Of a stretch of 64,000 bases of DNA, positions 38,747 to 50,024 are shown one piece after another; the stretch's first letter is position 1, and every line of letters begins with the position of its first letter. The notes under the pieces were generated by a model. That model was not told where the DNA came from, made no database searches, and worked only from the letters and a program-made list of their open reading frames with translations. Position numbers and translations under genes: made by a program. The stretch lies in contig NZ_BMEM01000001.1 in assembly GCF_014636495.1 (NCBI RefSeq), positions 186,001-250,000 on the forward strand, in the 5' to 3' direction. This stretch comes from Ornithinimicrobium tianjinense. Its GTDB lineage: Bacteria; Actinomycetota; Actinomycetes; Actinomycetales; Dermatophilaceae.

Positions 38747-39204
38747 GCGCTCAGCCTGCCCTGCGATGCGGACAGCAGGTGTCCGCCACGTGCGCGGCCC
38801 GTCGCTCTCGATGCTTCTTGTGCCCTCGGGCGCGAGGGCGGCTATCCGTGCCAGCGCCCCTGCGTTTCTCTTGAGGCCGAGGCCATGAAAGTCACGCGCT
38901 CCGCGTCAGCGCTTGGCCAGGTGACGAGGACACCCGCGGGAGGGTCGTGACAGACCGGATCCGCCGAGAGTCGGATGCTTCGGCAAGGGCCTGACCACGG
39001 CCGGCCACGCCGAGTAGCGGACGCTTCTGTTGAGCCCTGGATGCAGTTTCCGGCAGGGCAGTCGGTTCATAGACGAGCTAGTCCTACGTGATGTCGTAAT
39101 TATCACACCCCATGACGGTTCGATGCCCTATCGCACCGCCCAAGAGGGGAGGATCGTTGGAAGTGACCGGATTCCAGAGGTCTGGTCACAGCCAAGGAGC
39201 AGTC
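38747..39204. other. Gene-free left junction of the island
   Basis: 458 bp with no reading frame I can support. The first 250 bp are GC-rich; 39040-39120 is visibly richer in A/T (for example GTAATTATCAC around 39095-39105). The ribosome site of the next gene (AAGGAG, 39194-39199) lies at its right end. No tRNA remnant or clear attachment repeat found. Confidence 0.6.
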
Positions 39205-39783
39205 ATGAGAACCCCCACCCTCCCGCGGACCTGCGTTGCGCTCGCTGCGGCGATCATGAGCGTCTCAGGCGCCACTCCCGTGGTCGCCGTCCAGGCCGAC
39301 CTTCCGGTCGCGGAGGCGTTCGCACCGGGGCCGCACCATCCCGACTCTGGCCTCGTGGAGGGACTGCACATCGGACAGGGATCCTGTGCCGACAGTCTCG
39401 TGGACTACGAGCGGCGTCACGTTGAGATGTTGGAAAGGGACGGCGGCGGGAGCACCGACTCTCCGGTGTGGCACCACCTCGACGCTGACCTCGTCGAGGG
39501 ACTGCATATCGGACAGGGATTCTGTGCCGACAGTCGCCTGGACCACGAGCAGCGTCACGTTGAGATGGCCGAAACGCAGGGCCGCGGCATGGCCGACGCT
39601 CCCGTGTGGCACCACGACGGCGCGCCAGCCCCTCAACGCGACGACGCTCCAGCGTGGCACCACGAAGACGCGCCAGACCGCCAACGCGACGACGCTCCGG
39701 CGTGGCACCCCGACGGGGCTCCGGGCGCGGGTCACGACGAAAGGCCCGCTGACCACCACGGCGCCACCGGACGTCACGGCTGA
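39205..39783 (+). CDS. Secreted His-rich tandem-repeat protein, candidate metal-binding
   Basis: 192 residues of no family I recognise. A signal peptide (about 1-31, ending VVAVQA) is followed by two 42-residue repeats starting at 50 and 96 (period 46), each LVEGLHIGQG-x-CADS ... RHVEM ... PVWHH, then three 16-residue repeats at 131-146, 147-162 and 163-178, each starting DAP(V/A)WH. The mature part has 18 His, many Asp/Glu, and one Cys per long repeat (61, 107). The composition suggests binding of Zn, Cu, Ni or similar ions outside the cell. RBS AAGGAG sits 5 nt before the ATG. The next gene block is a metal-efflux operon on the other strand. Function is inference. Confidence 0.8.
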   Translation: MRTPTLPRTCVALAAAIMSVSGATPVVAVQADLPVAEAFAPGPHHPDSGLVEGLHIGQGSCADSLVDYERRHVEMLERDGGGSTDSPVWHHLDADLVEGLHIGQGFCADSRLDHEQRHVEMAETQGRGMADAPVWHHDGAPAPQRDDAPAWHHEDAPDRQRDDAPAWHPDGAPGAGHDERPADHHGATGRHG

Positions 39784-40198
39784 CCTCGCCTCCCGCCCTG
39801 ACACGCTGCGCAGCGGTCAGCGCGCGCAGACGGTTCATCGCGACCGCGCCGGGGCCGCCGACCGCCGGACCCGTCATCCTCCCGCAGGGGTCAGGTTCAG
39901 GTGGTCGTGTTCCTCCGGATCACAATCCGCAGGTAGGGCCGCCACCCTGTTGGGACCAGTTCGGCGGGGCTCTGCTTCACGCAGCGCCCTTTGTGGCGCA
40001 AGCCATGGGGGGTAGGTCTGGTGTGCCGGCAGCCTCCCACGCGGTAGAAGAGCCACTACAAGACTGTGGGGCAAGATGTGACTGGCCGTCGGGGGCGGGC
40101 AACACGGAGCGCGTCCCGTCCGCCGGTCGAAGGTAGCGCGAAGTGTTCGGGGCCCATGAGAAGGACCGTAGTGAGCGTCACGGACTGCTCTCGCAGGG
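39784..40198. other. Gene-free stretch between the His-rich protein and CDF genes
   Basis: 415 bp between convergent genes with no supported reading frame. A reverse-strand frame at 39874-40074 lacks a ribosome site and any recognisable motif. A small hairpin CGGAT-CACA-ATCCG (39918-39931) is present. Confidence 0.5.
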
Positions 40199-41113
40199 TC
40201 AGGCGTGGGCGGTGTGTTCGCGATCGGCGTGGCCGGGTGGTTCGAGCTGGAAGGTGGAGTGCTCGATGCTGACCTCGAAGTGGTCAGCCACGCAGTCCTG
40301 CAGACGGGCCAGCATCTCGGCGGCGTGACCGTCCGTGAAGCACTCCTCGTCCAGGACGACGTGAGCCGTCAGCACGGGTAGGCCGGTGGCGATGGTGGAG
40401 GCATGCAGGTCGTGCACGTCCTGCACGTGCGGGACCGCCAGTACGTGAGCGCGGACGTCGTCGAGGTCCAGCCCCTTGGGGGTGGACTCCAGCAGGATGT
40501 GGCCCGCCTCGCGCAGGATGGTGACGGCGCGGGGCACGATGAGGGCGGCGATGAGCATGCCGGCGATGGCGTCGATGCGGACCCACCCGGTGGTGGTGAT
40601 GACGATGGCGCTGATGATGACGGCCACCGACCCCAGGGCGTCGTTGACGACCTCCAGGAACGCGGCGCGCATGTTGAGGTTGGCGCCGCGTCCGGAGCTG
40701 AGGACCAGCACGGAGGCGATGTTTCCGGCAAGGCCGACGATGCCGAAGATCAGCAGGCCGGTGGAGCTGACCTCATGCGGCTCGTACAGGCGGCGGACGC
40801 CCTCGACGAAGGCATAGATCCCGACACCCAGGAGCACGGCCGCCTGCGCGCCGGCGGCGAGGACCTCCGCCCGGCGGAACCCCCAGGTCCGCTCGGCGGT
40901 CGGTGGGCGCAGCGCCACCGACGCGGCGACCAGCGCCATGCCCAGCCCGGCAGCGTCGGTGAGCATGTGCCCGGCGTCCACCAGCAGGGCCAGGGAGCCC
41001 GTCCACAACGCTCCGATGACCTCGGCGACCAGGATGGTCGCGGTGATCGCGAACGCGACCGCCAGCCGGCCCCGGTGGGTGGTGACGGTCCCGTGGTCGT
41101 GACCTGCGCTCAT
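40199..41113 (-). CDS. Cation diffusion facilitator (CDF/CzcD-type) transporter
   Basis: Proton-coupled exporter of divalent metals (304 aa, six helices). Metal-site helices II and V are visible: VDAGHMLTDAAGL (His/Asp) and EVVNDALGSVAVII (Asp). His-rich ends (SAGHDHG at the start; HADREHTAHA at the end) and the cytoplasmic C-terminal domain (VRAHVLAVPHVQDVHDLH) match zinc/cadmium/cobalt CDFs. Its ATG overlaps the ctpG stop (ATGA), so it is the third gene of the cmtR-ctpG-CDF operon. Confidence 0.92.
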   Translation of the reverse strand: MSAGHDHGTVTTHRGRLAVAFAITATILVAEVIGALWTGSLALLVDAGHMLTDAAGLGMALVAASVALRPPTAERTWGFRRAEVLAAGAQAAVLLGVGIYAFVEGVRRLYEPHEVSSTGLLIFGIVGLAGNIASVLVLSSGRGANLNMRAAFLEVVNDALGSVAVIISAIVITTTGWVRIDAIAGMLIAALIVPRAVTILREAGHILLESTPKGLDLDDVRAHVLAVPHVQDVHDLHASTIATGLPVLTAHVVLDEECFTDGHAAEMLARLQDCVADHFEVSIEHSTFQLEPPGHADREHTAHA

Positions 41114-43098
41114 GCGTGAGCTCCTTCCAGGTGGGCGCGGTCCTGCGCCGCGCCGGGGGCGACCAGGTGTCTGCTGCGGCCGGCACGGACGCCGTTGGCG
41201 ATGACCAGGACCTCGGCCAGCTCGTGGACGAGGACGACCGCGGCCAGACCCAGCACGCCGAGCAGGGCCAACGGGATCAGGACCGCGATCAGGACCAGGG
41301 AGACCACGACGTTCTGCAGCATGATGGCGCGGGTGCGGCGGGCGTGCTCGAACGCATACGGCAGCAGCCGCAGGTCATCACCCATGAGGGCGACGTCGGC
41401 GGTCTCGATCGCGACGTCGGTGCCCATCGCGCCCATCGCCACGCCGACGTCCGCGGTGGCCAGCGCGGGCGCGTCGTTGACACCGTCACCGACCATCGCG
41501 GTCGGCCCCTGGGCGCGCAGGCAGGTGACCACCTGCGACTTGTCCTCCGGGCGCAGGTCGGCGTGCACCTGCTCGATGCCGGCCTCGGCGGCCAGGGCCC
41601 GTGCGGTGACCTGGTTGTCCCCGGTCAGCATCGCCACGGTGTAGCCGTGGTCGACGAAGCGGGCGATGACCTCGGCGGCCTCGGGCCGCAGCTCGTCCCG
41701 GACGGCGATGGCACCGACCGGCTGACCGTCGACCTCGACCACGACCGCGGTCGCGCCGGCCTGCTGCATCCGCCGCACGTCACCCGCCAGGTCACCAGGG
41801 TCGACCCAGCCCGGTCTGCCGAGCCGGACCCGCGCACCGTCGACCGTGCCGACCAGGCCGGCGCCGACCACGGCCCGCACGTCCTGCGCGGCGGGCACCG
41901 TGGCGGAGGCGGCCAGGATAGCTGCCGCCAGCGGGTGCTCGCTGCGGGCCTCCAGCGCGGCCGCCCACCCCAGCACCTGGTCCCGGTCGCTCACCGGTGC
42001 GGTAGCGACGTCGACCACGGCCGGCCGGTTGCGCGTGAGTGTGCCGGTCTTGTCCAGGGCCACGGTGCGGACCCTGCCCAGGGCCTCCATCGCCGCACCG
42101 CCCTTGATCAGGATCCCGCGGCGGCTCGCCGCGCCGATCGAGGCCACCGCGGTGACCGGCACCGAGATCGCCAGCGCGCACGGGGAGGCGGCCACGACCA
42201 TGACCAGGGCCCGGTGCACCCAGACCGACGGGTCACCGAGGAGCGCGCCGAGCAGCGCGGTCAGGAGCGCGGCGACCAGGATGCCGGGCACCAGCGGGCG
42301 GGCGATCCGGTCCGCGAGCCGCTGCGTGGCGCCGCGCCGGGACTGCTCGGTCTCCACGACGTGCACGATGCGGGCCAGGGAGTTGTCCTGCGCGGTGGAG
42401 GTCACCGTGACCTCCAGGGCGCCGGTGCCGTTGATCGAGCCGGCGAAGACCTCCTGACCGGGGCCTGTCTCCACCGGCATCGACTCCCCGGTGATGGCCG
42501 AGGTGTCCATGCTGCTGCGCCCGCTGCGCACGGTACCGTCGGTCGCCAGCCGCTCCCCGGGCCGGACGACCATCACGTCCCCGATCGCCAGCCGGGCGGG
42601 GTCGAGGACGACCTCGCGGCCCCCGCGCAGCACCGTCGCCTCCTTGGGCACGAGGTCCAGCAGCGCCCGCAGGCCGTGCCGGGTCCGGGCCAGGGAGTAC
42701 TCCTCCAGGCCCTCGCTGAGGGAGAACAGGAACGCCAGCGCGGCGGCCTCCTCCACCTGCCCCAGCAGGGTGGCACCCACGGCACCGATGGTCATCAGCA
42801 GACCGACCCCGAGCTTGCCGCGCGCCAGCCTCCGCAGCGCCCCGGGCACGAACGTGGACCCGCCCACCAGCAGCGCCGCCGCGGCCAGCACCAGTTCCAC
42901 AGTCTCCCAGCCGCCGAGCCCGGCCAGGAACCCCGCTCCGAGCAGGGCGCCGGAGAGCAGGCCCAGCTGCACCTCCCGCACGTCCCACAGCCGGGTGACC
43001 GGCTCCTCGACATCCCCACCGCCGGTGGCTGGCGGCGGGATCTCGCACCCGCACGCGTCCACGACCACCTCCCGCTGCGGGGTCTCCTCGCGGCTCAC
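41110..43098 (-). CDS. ctpG: P1B-type metal-exporting ATPase, CtpG-like
   Basis: Heavy-metal P-type ATPase (662 aa). Order: short N-terminal Cys motif (VVVDACGCEIP) in place of a full HMA domain, membrane helices, actuator TGES, the membrane ion-site VVAASPCALAISVP (SPC rather than CPC), phosphorylation site DKTGTLT, MVGDGVNDAPAL, and VLVHELAEVLVIANGVR in the last helices. SPC plus HELAE points to the CtpG/CmtA group (Cd/Zn/Co-type substrates in mycobacteria) rather than CPC-type CadA. GTG start overlaps the cmtR stop (GTGA). The pairing with cmtR supports the name. Confidence 0.9.
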   Translation of the reverse strand: MSREETPQREVVVDACGCEIPPPATGGGDVEEPVTRLWDVREVQLGLLSGALLGAGFLAGLGGWETVELVLAAAALLVGGSTFVPGALRRLARGKLGVGLLMTIGAVGATLLGQVEEAAALAFLFSLSEGLEEYSLARTRHGLRALLDLVPKEATVLRGGREVVLDPARLAIGDVMVVRPGERLATDGTVRSGRSSMDTSAITGESMPVETGPGQEVFAGSINGTGALEVTVTSTAQDNSLARIVHVVETEQSRRGATQRLADRIARPLVPGILVAALLTALLGALLGDPSVWVHRALVMVVAASPCALAISVPVTAVASIGAASRRGILIKGGAAMEALGRVRTVALDKTGTLTRNRPAVVDVATAPVSDRDQVLGWAAALEARSEHPLAAAILAASATVPAAQDVRAVVGAGLVGTVDGARVRLGRPGWVDPGDLAGDVRRMQQAGATAVVVEVDGQPVGAIAVRDELRPEAAEVIARFVDHGYTVAMLTGDNQVTARALAAEAGIEQVHADLRPEDKSQVVTCLRAQGPTAMVGDGVNDAPALATADVGVAMGAMGTDVAIETADVALMGDDLRLLPYAFEHARRTRAIMLQNVVVSLVLIAVLIPLALLGVLGLAAVVLVHELAEVLVIANGVRAGRSRHLVAPGAAQDRAHLEGAHA

Positions 43099-43523
43099 GC
43101 GCCCTCCCCCTGCCCCGTGTGCGTGCGCAGCTGCTCCGGGGCGGGGTTGCCCTCGGTGCCGATGCCGTAGTTCGGGCACAGCGCCACGGCGGACCCCGTG
43201 GAGGCGAGCAGCCGCTCCGCCGCGTCCAGCACGCCCAGCAATTCGGGGGCACTGGTCAGCGAGAACATCGAGGCCCGGCCCTGCGGCCGGGACACCACCA
43301 GGCCGCAGTCGCGAAGGCACGCCAGGTGGGCGCTCACGGTCGACTGCGCCAGCCCAAGGTGTTCCGTGAGGTCACGCACCCGGTGCTCGCCCAGGCTCAG
43401 GTGCTGCAGGATCGCCAACCGCGACGGGTCCGACAGGCCGTGGAACAGCGCAGCCGCCACGGGGAGCCCTGCATCGCGCTCCGGACCTTCATGGCCGATC
43501 GGGACCTTCGCTGTCATCGTCAT
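43095..43523 (-). CDS. cmtR: ArsR/SmtB-family metal sensor, CmtR-like
   Basis: A 142-residue winged-helix repressor that leaves DNA when it binds metal. HTH segment LTEHLGLAQSTVSAHLACLRDCG contains the Cys pair C69/C73 of the alpha-4C site, and C116 in VALCPNYG is the third ligand, the set that binds Cd(II)/Pb(II) in mycobacterial CmtR. First gene of the three-gene efflux operon. TAACAT (complement of 43530-43535) is 6 nt before the start: a leaderless start, with any operator overlapping the promoter. A second in-frame ATG lies two codons on (43517). Confidence 0.92.
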   Translation of the reverse strand: MTMTAKVPIGHEGPERDAGLPVAAALFHGLSDPSRLAILQHLSLGEHRVRDLTEHLGLAQSTVSAHLACLRDCGLVVSRPQGRASMFSLTSAPELLGVLDAAERLLASTGSAVALCPNYGIGTEGNPAPEQLRTHTGQGEGA

Positions 43524-43751
43524 AGAGCGATGTTAGCGCACTGCCGCGTGCCGTGCGTCACGGGGGGCCAGGTGGACTGGCGTACCGCGGCGGGCCGCGA
43601 CAGACCGGCCCCCTGTGGATGCACACTCACCTGCTGCGCCCGCGCCATCGGCCATGCTGGTGCTGCAGTGGGCGGACGGGACAGCCCGCCTTGTTCCGGC
43701 GTGTTATGGCTGGCGCGCGAGGTCGGGGTCCGGGTCGTGCCTGGGCGAAGA

Positions 43752-44153
43752 CTACTGCGACGGGGACAGGATGTGGCAGATGTCCTGGTCTGCACAGTCG
43801 CCGGGGTCTAGCAGTCGGCTGCGCTGGAGCAGGGTCTCGAGCTCTGTCTGCAGCGTGAGGAGGTCGCGGATCCGTCTCCGGACGTCGGCGAGTCTGGTGT
43901 CCAGGAGTGTGGTGACGTGCTGGCAGGGGGTGGTCCCTTGGTCACGCAGGTCCAGGATGCTGCGGATCTGGGACAGCGTGAGCCCGGCGGCCTGCGCCAT
44001 GGCGATGAAGCGCAGCCGTGTGGCTGCGGACTCCTCGTAGACGCGGTAGCCGTTCGCCCCGCGCGCGGGCTCGGCCAGCAGGCCCTGGCGCTCGTAGAAG
44101 CGGATGGTCTGACTGCTCACTCCGGCCGACTCGGCCAGCTCTCCGATCCGCAT
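43752..44153 (-). CDS. MerR-family metal-responsive activator
   Basis: A 133-residue MerR-type regulator: MRIGELAESAGVSSQTIRFY winged helix, GYRVYEESAATRLRFI, a dimer coiled coil from about 82 to 110, and Cys at 77, 119 and 125. The Cys pattern is like ZntR/CadR/PbrR or MerR itself, so it senses a thiophilic metal; which one cannot be told. Divergent from the thioredoxin-like/flavoprotein pair, with the classic MerR promoter between them at 44176-44207. Confidence 0.88.
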   Translation of the reverse strand: MRIGELAESAGVSSQTIRFYERQGLLAEPARGANGYRVYEESAATRLRFIAMAQAAGLTLSQIRSILDLRDQGTTPCQHVTTLLDTRLADVRRRIRDLLTLQTELETLLQRSRLLDPGDCADQDICHILSPSQ

Positions 44154-44175
44154 TCGCGCTGTCCTACTCTCACGC

Positions 44176-44207
44176 TTGACCTTGTACCAGGGTACAAGGT
44201 CTAGCGT
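44176..44207 (+). promoter_or_regulatory. MerR-type promoter with overlong spacer and central dyad
   Basis: TTGACC (-35, 44176-44181) and TAGCGT (-10, 44202-44207) are 20 bp apart. The spacer carries a perfect dyad ACCTTGTACC (44179-44188), AG, GGTACAAGGT (44191-44200). MerR activators bind such dyads and untwist the overlong spacer. The ATG at 44215 is 7 nt after the -10, so the mRNA is leaderless. Confidence 0.92.
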
Positions 44208-44214
44208 CGCGGGT

Positions 44215-44529
44215 ATGGACGTCTGCCTGCTCTACTTCGAGGACTGCCCCAACTGGAAGGTGACTGACCGCAGGTTGGTCGCGATCGCGGCCGAGCACCC
44301 GGAAGTCAGGATCCGGCGTCAGCGCGTCGAGACCCTCGAGCAGGCCCAACAGGTGGGCTTTCGCGGCTCACCCACAGTGCTGGTCGACGATACCGACGCG
44401 TTCTGCGCCCCAGACTCAGCAGGGGGCCTGTCGTGCCGGGTCTACCACACGGCGGACGGCCTGGCTGGGGCACCGACCACGGGACAGCTGTACGCAGCGC
44501 TGGGGCTGGCCCAGGAGGCCACGCGATGA
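44215..44529 (+). CDS. Small thioredoxin-fold protein of the DF-family type, metal-induced
   Basis: A 104-residue protein starting MDVCLLYFEDCPNW (C4 and C11), with GFRGSPTVLVDD as the cis-Pro loop and two further Cys (AFCAPDS, LSCRVY). Small thioredoxin-like proteins of this look accompany MerR-controlled loci in actinobacteria and have been loosely annotated as alkylmercury lyase-like. A CxxC motif is absent; the two N-terminal Cys are 6 apart. It is directly driven by the MerR-type promoter and overlaps the flavoprotein gene by 4 bp (ATGA). Thiol or metal chemistry is inferred. Confidence 0.78.
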   Translation: MDVCLLYFEDCPNWKVTDRRLVAIAAEHPEVRIRRQRVETLEQAQQVGFRGSPTVLVDDTDAFCAPDSAGGLSCRVYHTADGLAGAPTTGQLYAALGLAQEATR

Positions 44530-45878
44530 CCTACGACTACGACCTGATCGTCATCGGTGCCGGCATGGCCGGCGTCACGGCGGCGAACAAGTGCGCCTCC
44601 GCGGGGTGGAAAGTCGCGATCGTCGACGCCCTGCCCTACGGCGGCACGTGTGCCCTGCGCGGGTGCGACCCCAAGAAGATCCTGCGCCGCGGTGCGGAGG
44701 TCATCGACAGCGCCCGCCTGATGCGCGGCAAGGGCATCGACGACGACGGCCTGTCGATCAACTGGGCCGACCTCATGGCGCACAAGCACGGCTTCACCGA
44801 CCCCGTCCCCGCGCAGATGGAGGAAGGGCTGTCAGGCAACGGGGTCACCACCTTCCACGGGACGGCGCGGTTCACCGGTCCCAACACCGTGGCCATCGAC
44901 GACGCCCCCTACACCGGCCGACACTTCCTCATCGCCACCGGTGCCCGCCCGCGCCCGCTGGACCTGCCCGGGCACGAGCACCTGGTAGACAGCACCGGGT
45001 TCCTGGACTTGCCCGAGCTGCCGCGACGGATCCTGTTCGTCGGCGGTGGCTTCATCTCCTTCGAGTTCGCCCACATCGCCGCCCGGGCCGGCAGCACCCC
45101 GGTCATCCTGGACCGCAAACCTCGACCGCTGAAGGCCTTCGACCCCGACCTCGTCGACCTCCTCATCGACCGCAGCGCCCAGGTCGGGATCCAGACCTGG
45201 CGCTCTGCGACGCTCACCGCGGTGGAGACGACCGCCACCGGCTATCAGGTAAGCGTGGATGAATCAGGGCGGTCAAGGACAGCCGAGTTCGACCTGGTCG
45301 TCCACGGCGCAGGCCGGACCCCCGAGCTGACGACCCTGGACCTGGACGCCGCCGGCGTCCAGTCGGACGAGGACGGGGTCCGCGTAGCAGCCCACCTGCA
45401 GAGCACCAGCAACCCGGCGGTCTACGCCGCCGGCGACGCGGCCAGCACCCCCGGCATGCCACTGACCCCGGTCGCCGTGTTCGAGGGCAAGGTCGCCGCG
45501 TCGAACATGCTCAAGGGCACCACGACCGCCCCGGACTACACCGGCGTGCCCACCGCGGTGTTCACGATCCCCGAACTCACCCGGGTCGGCCTGCTCGAAG
45601 ACGAAGCCCTCGCCCGGGGCATCGACATCAACGTCCGCTACTCCGACACCAGCAGCTGGTACTCCAACTACCGGATCGGGGAGACGACCGCCGCGGCCAA
45701 GATCCTGATCGACCGCTCCACCGACACCATCGTGGGAGCCCACCTGCTCGGCCCCGAATACGCCGAACTCGTCAACACCCTGGCCCTCGCCATGAAGCTG
45801 GGACTCACCACCCGCCAGCTGAAGTCGATGACCGCCGCCTACCCCACCGTCGGATCAGACCTAGGCTCCATGCTCTGA
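44526..45878 (+). CDS. Pyridine nucleotide-disulfide oxidoreductase, MerA-like but without Hg ligands
   Basis: FAD/NAD(P)H flavoprotein (450 aa). FAD motif VIGAGMAGVTAA, redox disulfide GGTCALRGCDPKK (C42, C47), NAD(P) motif FVGGGFISFEFA, second FAD motif VYAAGDAA, and a C-terminal dimer domain. Mercuric reductases end in a Cys pair and have HPT...E as catalytic acid; here the C-terminus is AYPTVGSD (Tyr439 for His) and DLGSML, with no C-terminal Cys. It thus belongs to a MerA-like side branch of unknown substrate. Co-expressed with the thioredoxin-like protein under the MerR-type promoter. Confidence 0.88.
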   Translation: MTYDYDLIVIGAGMAGVTAANKCASAGWKVAIVDALPYGGTCALRGCDPKKILRRGAEVIDSARLMRGKGIDDDGLSINWADLMAHKHGFTDPVPAQMEEGLSGNGVTTFHGTARFTGPNTVAIDDAPYTGRHFLIATGARPRPLDLPGHEHLVDSTGFLDLPELPRRILFVGGGFISFEFAHIAARAGSTPVILDRKPRPLKAFDPDLVDLLIDRSAQVGIQTWRSATLTAVETTATGYQVSVDESGRSRTAEFDLVVHGAGRTPELTTLDLDAAGVQSDEDGVRVAAHLQSTSNPAVYAAGDAASTPGMPLTPVAVFEGKVAASNMLKGTTTAPDYTGVPTAVFTIPELTRVGLLEDEALARGIDINVRYSDTSSWYSNYRIGETTAAAKILIDRSTDTIVGAHLLGPEYAELVNTLALAMKLGLTTRQLKSMTAAYPTVGSDLGSML

Positions 45879-46084
45879 ACCAGGACCAACCAGCGACCCC
45901 CAGATCGCGGACCAGGGGACAAAGGCCAGTCGGACCGGTCTTGCCCGCCCGCTTCGCGATTACCGGATCTGCCGCAGGTCGCTCGAGGTCGGAGGTGTCA
46001 GTCCCAGCACGGGACCGGCGCCGCCGTCTCAGGGTCGCTGTTAATGCACGTGCTTGGCCATCGCGCTCCCGCCAGACTGGGCAG

Positions 46085-46616: not shown

Positions 46617-46976
46617 CTAGTGCCACTTGGCCAAGTGGCGAGCTGCCACCTGGTGATCGGCCGTGCCGCTGGCGACAGCGATGACCAGGTCGTAGGCGTC
46701 GTCGTCAGGCGCCTCGAGATCGACGCCGTTGATGCCGTAGAACACGACTACCGCGAGCCACCCCAGCCGCTTGTTGCCATCAACCAGCGGGTGGTTGACG
46801 ACGATGGATTCCAGCAGCGCACCCGCCTTTGCGTCGATGCCGGGGTAGGCGTCACGACCGAAGACGCTGGCGCGGGGACGGTGGGCGGCGGAGTCCAAGA
46901 GGCCAAGGTCCTGGATCGGGCCTACGCGCAGGTCCGATGCCAGGGCGAGCAGGTCCTCCGTAGTCAGGTACTCCAA
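46617..46976 (-). CDS. Doc/Fic-family toxin (death-on-curing)
   Basis: A 119-residue Fic-fold protein with NHPLVDGNKRLGWLA, matching the Doc form of the Fic motif (Doc phosphorylates EF-Tu in phage P1). The start appears to be TTG at 46976, 3 bp after the antitoxin stop. Length is normal for Doc. Partner is the ribbon-helix-helix protein just upstream. Toxicity is inferred from the family. Confidence 0.88.
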   Translation of the reverse strand: MEYLTTEDLLALASDLRVGPIQDLGLLDSAAHRPRASVFGRDAYPGIDAKAGALLESIVVNHPLVDGNKRLGWLAVVVFYGINGVDLEAPDDDAYDLVIAVASGTADHQVAARHLAKWH

Positions 46977-47540: not shown

Positions 47541-48395
47541 TCCGACTTTGCCGCTTGGAGGGCGTTAGGTCTTCGGGGCGTCCGCCTGGCCGAACACGTG
47601 CTTGGCCCGGCACGGACAGCGCTTGCCGGGGACCCAAGAAAGGTTCTTGACCCGATCGGGGGGTGCTGGCCGTGGGAACCCGTCGCCGGACGGTAGCGTC
47701 CGACCTGGGCCGAGTTGAACCTTGGCACTCATCGAGGAGGTGGGCCTGATGCATACGACCATGTGGCGGCCGCTGTGGGCAGGCGCCAACGGATCGGGCC
47801 CGGCCATGGATGCTGACGTGCAGTTCGATCCGGGGGTGTCTCTCGACCCTATTGCTGGACCGGGCGAGGGGTTGTTCTCCGCAATGCCGGTGCTCATGGG
47901 CATCTTCTTCATCATCTTCGTAATCGTGGTCGTCGTGAAGCTGGTCCAAGCCGGGCAGACCTTCGCCAACAATTCCGCGTTGCCCGAGCAGACCGTCGCC
48001 GCACGGGTGGTCGGAAAGCGGACCCACACCGAGGGTGGAGCGGGCGACAGCGCGGTGCAGACCGCTTACTTCGCCACGTTCGAGGTTGGGAATGGTGAAC
48101 GCATCGAGGTCAAGATCCCACCACGCGAGTACGGCCAGTTCGCGGAGGGGGATCAGGGGCAACTTACCCATCAGGGCACGTGGTATCGCGGGTTCGAGCG
48201 CAGGCGCGTCATCCCAACGGACGGCTCGTGGGAAGCGCCCGGCGGCCCCTCCCTCCGGCCGCCGAACACAACCTGAGGCCAACCGCAACGTTTCCCTGAA
48301 CCACTCCGAGCGGCCAGCCTCGCGCCGTCAGCTCTTGCCGCGTGGAGGACGGCTACGCTCGTCCGACTCTGCCGCGTGGAGCCTGCCGCTTGGGG
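47541..48395. repeat. Direct repeats around the DUF2500-like gene
   Basis: A 20-bp element occurs at 47541-47560 and, with 18 of 20 bases equal, at 48362-48381 (core TGCCGCKTGGAG). The 12-bp core is also at 48336-48347 and, with two changes, at 48384-48395. The copies lie in the gene-free stretches on either side of 47749-48276. Confidence 0.6.
47749..48276 (+). CDS. DUF2500-like membrane-anchored protein
   Basis: A 175-residue protein with one membrane helix (PVLMGIFFIIFVIVVVVKLV, about 53-72) and a cytosolic or outer beta-rich domain: AARVVGKRTH, YFATFEVGNGERIEVKIP, EYGQFAEGDQGQLTHQGTWY, the DUF2500 pattern seen in YhhM-like proteins. ATG 47749 has GAGGAGG 8 nt upstream. TAGCGT at 47694-47699 may be the -10. 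Function unknown; flanked by short direct repeats. Confidence 0.72.
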   Translation: MHTTMWRPLWAGANGSGPAMDADVQFDPGVSLDPIAGPGEGLFSAMPVLMGIFFIIFVIVVVVKLVQAGQTFANNSALPEQTVAARVVGKRTHTEGGAGDSAVQTAYFATFEVGNGERIEVKIPPREYGQFAEGDQGQLTHQGTWYRGFERRRVIPTDGSWEAPGGPSLRPPNTT

Positions 48396-49094: not shown

Positions 49095-50024
49095 ATGACC
49101 ACAACCCAGCCCTCCTCCGCCCTCGTCCCCGTGAGCGTCATCGACCCCGCAGATGCCGCGCTGCGCCAGGCCGTTGCCGCCCACCTGGCCCGCTACACCG
49201 GCCAGACGCGCACCCACACCGAGTCCGACCTACGTGCCTTCCTGAACTGGTGCGCCCAACGGGGCCTGGACCCGCTGGCCGCCCATCGGGTGCACGTCGA
49301 GCTGTACGTGCGGTGGATGCAGGAGACCCGCCGGTACAAGCCGTCCACGATCTCGCGGCGGCTGTCGGTGGTGATCGGTTTCTACCGCACGGCCGTCATC
49401 GACGGCGTCCTGACCGCCTCCCCGGCCGACCACATCCGCCGCCCGCACGTGCCACCCGAATCACCTACCTTGGGCCTGTCCCACCTGCAGTTCGAGGCGA
49501 TGCTGCAGGCCGGCCGGGCCAGCGTCAACGTCAACGACTTCGCCCTCGTCACCATGCTCGGCCTGCTTGGACTGCGGATCTTCGAGGCGTGCGGCGCGAA
49601 CGTCCAGGACCTTCGCGAAGAGCACGGCCACCGGGTGCTGAAGGTCCGCGGCAAGGGAGGCAAGGTCGTCCTGACGCCCCTGCCGCCTGCGGTGCAGCGC
49701 GCGATCGAACGCGCCGTCGACAACCGTGAGGAAGGGCCGATCCTGCGCAACCGGCAGGGAGGCCGGATGGACCGGCACGCCGCGACCCGGCGGCTGCATC
49801 ACCTGGCCGACGACGCCGGGATCACCATGCCGCGGATGCATCCACACATGCTCCGGCACACGTTCGTCACCACGATGCTCGACGCCGGCGTGGACCTGCG
49901 CGACGTCCAGATTGCCGCTCGTCACGCCGACCCCCGCACCACCATGCGCTACGACCGAGCACGCAAGAACCTTGACCGTCACCCCAACTACATCCTCGCC
50001 GCCTACATGGCCTCCGGCACCTGA
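49095..50024 (+). CDS. Tyrosine recombinase/site-specific integrase
   Basis: A 309-residue XerC/D-size recombinase. N-terminal SAM-like core-binding domain ([20 protein letters not shown]) and C-terminal catalytic domain with R151 ([11 protein letters not shown]), a Lys in RGKGGK, H251 and R254 (HMLRHTF), H277 (AARHADP) and nucleophile Y286 (TMRYDRAR): all six catalytic positions are filled. It acts by cutting and rejoining DNA at specific sites; the twin palindromes 30-80 bp upstream are candidates. It is the rightmost island gene. Confidence 0.93.

Follow-up and report, generated by a model that had tools for sequence, protein, structure and literature searches.

A Lineage-Restricted, His-Rich Repeat Protein at the Edge of a Metal-Resistance Island in Ornithinimicrobium tianjinense as a Candidate Extracytoplasmic Metal Buffer

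The 64,000-nucleotide stretch of Ornithinimicrobium tianjinense DNA analyzed here (hereafter "the window") carries, at one end of a metal-resistance island, a gene for a small His-rich protein built of tandem repeats (P0001), which is at present best described as an orphan protein with a plausible candidate role as a metal buffer. The reading we put forward, at a probability of roughly 0.5, is that of a young accessory extracytoplasmic metal buffer of an efflux island, similar to SilE in its action, not in its ancestry; the link to metal is drawn solely from the composition of the protein and from the identity of its neighbors. Of the 186 family genomes, that of the window and two more have close relatives of P0001 and no others do, the two further carriers being an uncultured Serinicoccus sp. 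(genome G133, locus L001) and Ornithinimicrobium sp. CNJ-824 (genome G119, locus L002).

The Metal-Resistance Island

In the original prediction, the gene opens an island with metal-sensor and metal-pump genes, and such an island is indeed present, enclosed by a 13-bp direct repeat. Its extent and the genes accompanying that of P0001 are as follows (window coordinates):

38954..45974 (no strand): metal-resistance island (~7 kb) within the 13-bp direct repeat ACCGGATCYGCCG (copies at 38954-38966 and 45962-45974)
40199..41113 (-): CDF cation efflux transporter (TIGR01297 above cut-off)
41110..43098 (-): P1B-type heavy-metal ATPase, cadmium family (TIGR01512, 509.7 bits; cut-off 313.5)
43095..43523 (-): ArsR/SmtB metalloregulator similar to CmtR, scoring under the CmtR cut-off (profile matches)
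43752..44153 (-): MerR-family regulator (every MerR subfamily model below its cut-off)
44215..44529 (+): 104-aa protein, possibly thioredoxin-like (Cys4 and Cys11; no Pfam match)
44526..45878 (+): FAD/NAD(P) disulfide oxidoreductase similar to MerA, scoring under the MerA cut-off (profile matches)

The start codon of the ATPase is our own choice, as the open frame extends to 43320; against the Cu subfamily model TIGR01511 this ATPase scored 382.3, below the cut-off of 397, and its best solved relative is 7qbz, a cadmium translocating P-type ATPase. MerA carries a C-terminal Cys pair, and the C-terminus of the island oxidoreductase has none. The neighbors point to the Zn/Cd/Pb metal class.

Compared with the window, the island is 97.7% identical in L001 and 99.2-99.5% identical in L002, the contig of which ends inside the island. 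Each of the three genomes has the island at a different location. The left flanks of the three islands all differ, apart from a short repeat element, and the right flank of L001 is unlike that of the window except for a 42-nt stretch, which in the window comes 2.4 kb later. This 42-nt element is palindromic. In L001 (14768-14809) it lies directly against the right-hand island boundary, while its 93% copy in the window (48336-48376) lies 2.4 kb to the right of the island, near a tyrosine recombinase gene (49095-50024) that is outside the stretch common to the islands; element and recombinase together are perhaps an unrecognised cassette-like system. At the left island end (38943-38983), there is an element longer than the 13-bp repeat that may be a recombination site moving the island. 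Its 22-bp core (at most two mismatches) has 15 sites spread over 12 of the 31 genomes searched within the genus, none with more than two, and gave no sites in the controls. Beside the island in L002 (3783-7630), a TrwC-type relaxase frame with an overlapping AAA/helicase frame is a hint of a conjugative carrier, and a Fic/DOC-family gene to the right of the window's island (46617-46976, -) would perhaps, with a small upstream ORF, make up a toxin-antitoxin pair. Within the non-coding DNA between the genes of P0001 and the CDF transporter, ~145 nt (39988-40129) have a 77% copy in another genome of the genus (L067, 6881-7025), where the 14 kb fetched gave no match to any island protein.

The His-Rich Protein and Its Upstream Region

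A secreted His-rich protein with repeats had been proposed at 39205-39783, and the translation of this frame (plus strand, 192 aa) agrees with the proposal. The features of the gene and of its upstream region are the following:

39163..39189 (+): palindrome, 27 nt, a potential 11-bp RNA hairpin before the ribosome-binding site (folding)
39194..39199 (+): AAGGAG, resembling a ribosome-binding site, with the ATG 5 nt downstream (read from the sequence)
39205..39783 (+): coding sequence of P0001, 192 aa, His-rich, with repeats (open frame; substitution pattern against L001)
39205..39297 (+): signal-peptide-like N-terminus, residues 1-31, MRTPTLPRT...VVAVQA (read by eye; crude hydropathy scan)
39352..39477 (+): long unit 1, residues 50-91 (138-nt repeat, 81% identity)
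39490..39615 (+): long unit 2, residues 96-137 (138-nt repeat, 81% identity)
39595..39738 (+): three 16-residue (48-nt) units, residues 131-178 (DNA repeat search; four copies in L002)

The putative Sec features of the N-terminus (positive n-region, hydrophobic core and AxA-type site) come from a by-eye reading and a crude hydropathy scan, in which the N-terminus, identical in L001 and L002, scored 2.5; this signal-peptide-like start suggests an export-type protein. If the protein is assumed to be cut after VQA31 (a site chosen by eye), the mature part comprises 161 aa with a net charge of -21 and contains 18 His, 21 Asp and 11 Glu (32 Asp+Glu), 11 Arg and no Lys, along with 2 Cys, 3 Met and 4 Trp. 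The totals of 18 His and of one Cys per long unit (Cys61 and Cys107) are just as originally reported, Cys10 falling within the signal region. His makes up 11.2% of the mature protein, compared with 1.7, 2.2 and 5.6% for three island neighbors, and the sequence contains the motif WH four times and HxxM at residues 72 and 118. An AlphaFold model computed from three sequences had a mean pLDDT of 38.6 and no confident fold, the long units perhaps forming two helices. Such a low-confidence model is compatible with a SilE-like disordered "sponge" (PMC5008109), although the three-row alignment, and not disorder, may be what makes it weak.

Upstream of the gene, the hairpin (76 nt folded, -28.5 kcal/mol, z -2.8, equalled by one of 200 shuffles) could by extension reach over the ribosome-binding site, and the palindrome might act as an operator or as a control element within the 5' UTR. 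Its pattern has an exact match in the genome solely at 39163-39189, and a palindrome regulon was rejected as chance, the five further genomic sites found at up to three mismatches being matched by five for a control pattern. The palindrome is identical in L001 and L002, and, because an unchanged palindrome offers no covariation, an RNA element and a DNA operator are not separable here. No control site common to P0001 and the metal genes was found in a comparison of one palindrome; Rfam returned one chance-level match, under its gathering score, and a promoter scan, uninformative in this DNA, found none.

Repeat Architecture and Divergence

The repeat words named in the original prediction are all in place: LVEGLHIGQG-x-CADS begins at residues 50 and 96 (a period of 46), RHVEM (71/117) and PVWHH (87/133) occur in both long units, and the three-fold 16-residue repeat starts with DAPVWH at 131 and DAPAWH at 147 and 163. 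At the DNA level, the long units are two adjacent 138-nt copies with 81% identity, and the short array consists of a 48-nt unit with a 24-nt sub-period; these repeats are not attributable to chance. One correction to the earlier description is that short unit 1 overlaps the tail (PVWHH) of long unit 2, and the short array therefore looks like an amplified version of that tail. Variation in repeat number, proposed as something to look for, does exist: L002 has one extra 48-nt copy (four short copies vs three), so the short array is still changing in number.

Long units 1 and 2 differ at 25 nucleotides, spread as 8/9/8 across the codon positions, and of 20 codons that differ, 15 encode another residue (dN 0.206, dS 0.211); the 15 changed residues compare with 17.3 expected under random placement (P 0.16). 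This unit-to-unit divergence looks neutral, and, as it shows no codon-position bias, the words common to both long units reflect a recent duplication and are not readable as conserved motifs, i.e., they are no evidence of function.

A Translated Gene or a By-Product of High GC?

Such divergence, lacking codon-position bias, is also what would be seen if the frame were an untranslated tandem-repeat stretch, open as a by-product of high GC, and codon usage leans the same way: the P0001 frame scores -0.265 bits/codon, under all ten neighboring genes (-0.056 to 0.40), and two of the five alternative frames of the same stretch score higher than it does (-0.028 and -0.221); its GC3 of 0.77 compares with 0.85-0.94 for the remaining six genes of the island. 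The comparison with L001 (protein 98% identical) argues the other way, as third codon positions hold 9 of the 11 substitutions and only 4 are nonsynonymous vs 8.6 expected (P 0.003-0.005 in three simulation runs; dN 0.009, dS 0.052), and the sole other frame with a matching substitution pattern carries six stops. The identical test gave P 0.24 for a non-coding control of 414 nt, strong depletion for the ATPase and the oxidoreductase, P 0.047 for ArsR, and no significance in either direction for CDF (0.14), MerR (0.10) and the 104-aa protein (0.34). Indels speak against an untranslated stretch as well: relative to L001, two 1-nt indels lie in the downstream flank and none in the frame, and relative to L002 the frame has a single one, of 48 nt. 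With a ribosome-binding-site-like sequence and a signal-peptide-like start present in addition, we consider the untranslated alternative highly improbable and take P0001 for a translated gene constrained at the protein level and of foreign or young composition, as judged from 11 changes in one pair of sequences. Four ORFs overlapping P0001 were rejected as alternatives, having no Pfam match at E <= 1 and substitutions that argue against them.

Search for Relatives

The original claim that no known family has this repeat was upheld, P0001 having no match in Pfam (E <= 10) or NCBIfam (E <= 1). Neither solved structures (E <= 10) nor plasmids, phages and viral contigs yielded a P0001 match, and the single PHROGs match (E 0.96) was taken as chance, as was the one Pfam match of P0002 (E 5.7). 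Two weak full-length matches in the family search, L006 and L007 (in genomes G169 and G020), which look like pieces of genes for a lysyl-tRNA synthetase and for an aldehyde dehydrogenase, were dismissed as chance, the alignments being short or gapped with no repeat pattern.

An alignment of the 46-residue unit (A1) was further searched in 396 genomes of the order, 394 of the class and 396 of the phylum (partly overlapping samples; E limits of 0.05, 0.05 and 0.01, respectively), with matches outside the own genome in 26, 19 and 6 of them (best E 0.0009). The five of these inspected, by one alignment each (L010-L013 and L125), were short or gapped, single and devoid of the repeat pattern, so that, on these five, the order, class and phylum samples offered no credible relative. 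The first pass of the A1 search scored at most 17 candidates per genome and the contig scan for P0001 required near-exact peptide matches, because of which distant relatives can have been missed. A DNA search with window positions 38943-40199 matched 47 of the 186 family genomes at E <= 0.001; the match covered nearly the whole query only in G000, G119 and G133, the others being short pieces, the left-end repeat included. No paper on P0001 was found in the literature covered, which excludes most subscription journals. By sequence, P0001 is lineage-restricted, with no known family in the libraries searched.

Association with the Pump Operon and the Proposed Role

Whether relatives of the protein keep metal genes as neighbors was among the checks proposed, and in all three carrier genomes P0001 is accompanied by the CDF, Cd-family ATPase, ArsR and MerR genes; the proteins encoded by these are 97.9-100% identical among the three islands. 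The pump itself is widespread: the island ATPase has matches at E <= 1e-150 in 53 of the 186 family genomes (69 places); setting the three islands aside leaves 66, of which 20 were fetched. An ArsR match stands beside the pump at 20/20 of these loci and a near-full-length adjoining CDF gene at 12/20. P0001 was absent from all 20, and in the 1.5 kb downstream of the 12 near-full-length CDF genes no match to P0001 had an E value below 1.5 (excluded from this last test were L118 and L123, with a broken CDF, L105, L107, L111, L116 and L120, where the pump lacks an adjoining CDF match, and L124, with a 37% CDF elsewhere). In the L118 pump operon it is the CDF that is broken, in L123 the CDF and ATPase matches both. 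The His-rich ORFs with a hydrophobic start at the 20 loci were read as CDF/ATPase pieces, shadow frames and unrelated ORFs; those taken for shadow frames reach ~10% His, and His-rich open frames arise easily in high-GC DNA. As P0001 is absent from all 20 other loci fetched, the pump does not need it: the operon is widespread, and P0001 is an optional extra.

This absence also fits a young secreted repeat protein that merely rides on the island, with a surface, biofilm or other role and no metal handling, and so do the position of the gene, outermost next to the island boundary in a transcription unit of its own convergent with the CDF gene, and its low GC3. Such a passenger would nevertheless have to be reconciled with retention in 3/3 island copies, with protein-level constraint and with a composition that suits metal binding, and we regard it as a possible but rather unlikely explanation.

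The metal-buffer reading, with the even odds given at the outset, draws on the same constraint and three-for-three co-occurrence, on the His-rich acidic composition, and on a CDF transporter and a Cd-family ATPase that both score above curated cut-offs. Weighing against it are the absence at 20/20 pump loci, the near-neutral divergence of the units, a constraint estimated from 11 changes in one pair, the poor codon usage, the lack of a common control site in the search made, and the ~10% His of shadow frames. Under the metal-buffer reading, P0001 would be an export-type, acidic, probably disordered, His-rich "sponge" serving its efflux island: its His and acidic side chains and the one Cys per long unit would bind metal outside the membrane, which would lower the re-entry of metal expelled by the ATPase and the CDF transporter, and more short repeats would mean more metal sites. 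A bolder version, in which P0001 is the founder of a recently born Gram-positive metal-buffer family, with capacity set by repeat number, translation perhaps gated by the hairpin, and the gene carried as mobile-island cargo, seems to us doubtful.

Comparison with Known Systems

To our knowledge, extracytoplasmic metal sponges are known mainly from Gram-negative periplasms (SilE and its copper relative PcoE). P0001 resembles these two in being a small, export-type, His-rich protein of a metal-efflux cluster. SilE is a periplasmic "molecular sponge" of silver resistance that is disordered when free (PMC5008109, PMC10080550) and has HxxM as a silver-binding motif (PMC10080550). It has ten His, compared with 18 in P0001, and ten Met, compared with 3 in mature P0001, and folds when it binds Ag; the pLDDT of the P0001 model fits either disorder or too shallow an alignment. 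HxxM occurs once per long unit (HVEM at 72-75 and 118-121; the second is HAEM in L001, still HxxM), and the two copies, lying in duplicated DNA, are one event. P0001 differs from SilE/PcoE in matching no family (Pfam, NCBIfam and solved-structure searches), in its tandem units, in its Gram-positive host, and in its neighbors, which are CDF, Cd-family ATPase, ArsR, MerR and oxidoreductase genes instead of a sil/pco/cus-type Ag/Cu cluster.

PacL proteins, which accompany P1B-ATPases in actinobacteria, offer a different model, in which P0001 would be a membrane-held disordered scaffold gathering metal for the pump or stabilizing it, the hydrophobic start serving as an uncleaved anchor. PacL has a TM domain, its Glu/Ala repeats are cytoplasmic and its gene accompanies that of its P1B-ATPase (PMC9374683), and the acidic-His metal-binding stretch of PacL1 is DLHDHDH. 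PacL1-3 (DUF1490) and P0001 are alike in being actinobacterial, partly disordered (probably so in P0001) and P1B-ATPase-linked and in having an acidic-His stretch. P0001, however, has no DUF1490 match (Pfam), and its gene, read from the other strand, is separated from that of the ATPase by the CDF gene and forms a separate, convergent transcription unit. The single hydrophobic stretch of P0001 is N-terminal and no Glu/Ala repeat was seen by eye; an export-type start would put the repeats of P0001 on the outer side, in contrast to the cytoplasmic Glu/Ala repeats in PacL. Partnership with the ATPase in the manner of PacL thus seems very unlikely.

Polyhistidine-triad proteins (PhtD, streptococci) are surface proteins with a proposed role in zinc homeostasis, phtD being in an operon with the zinc-import protein gene adcAII (PMC3842936). 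The likeness to the metal-buffer reading of P0001 is that of surface proteins with a proposed metal role; P0001 has no sequence match to them and belongs to an export island, in contrast to the operon of phtD.

Should the metal-buffer reading hold, the role of P0001 would be of a known kind, while its sequence family would be new to the libraries searched, and a Gram-positive "sponge" on a mobile island, with a repeat number that varies between strains, would make a simple test case for how tandem duplication gives rise to metal-binding capacity.
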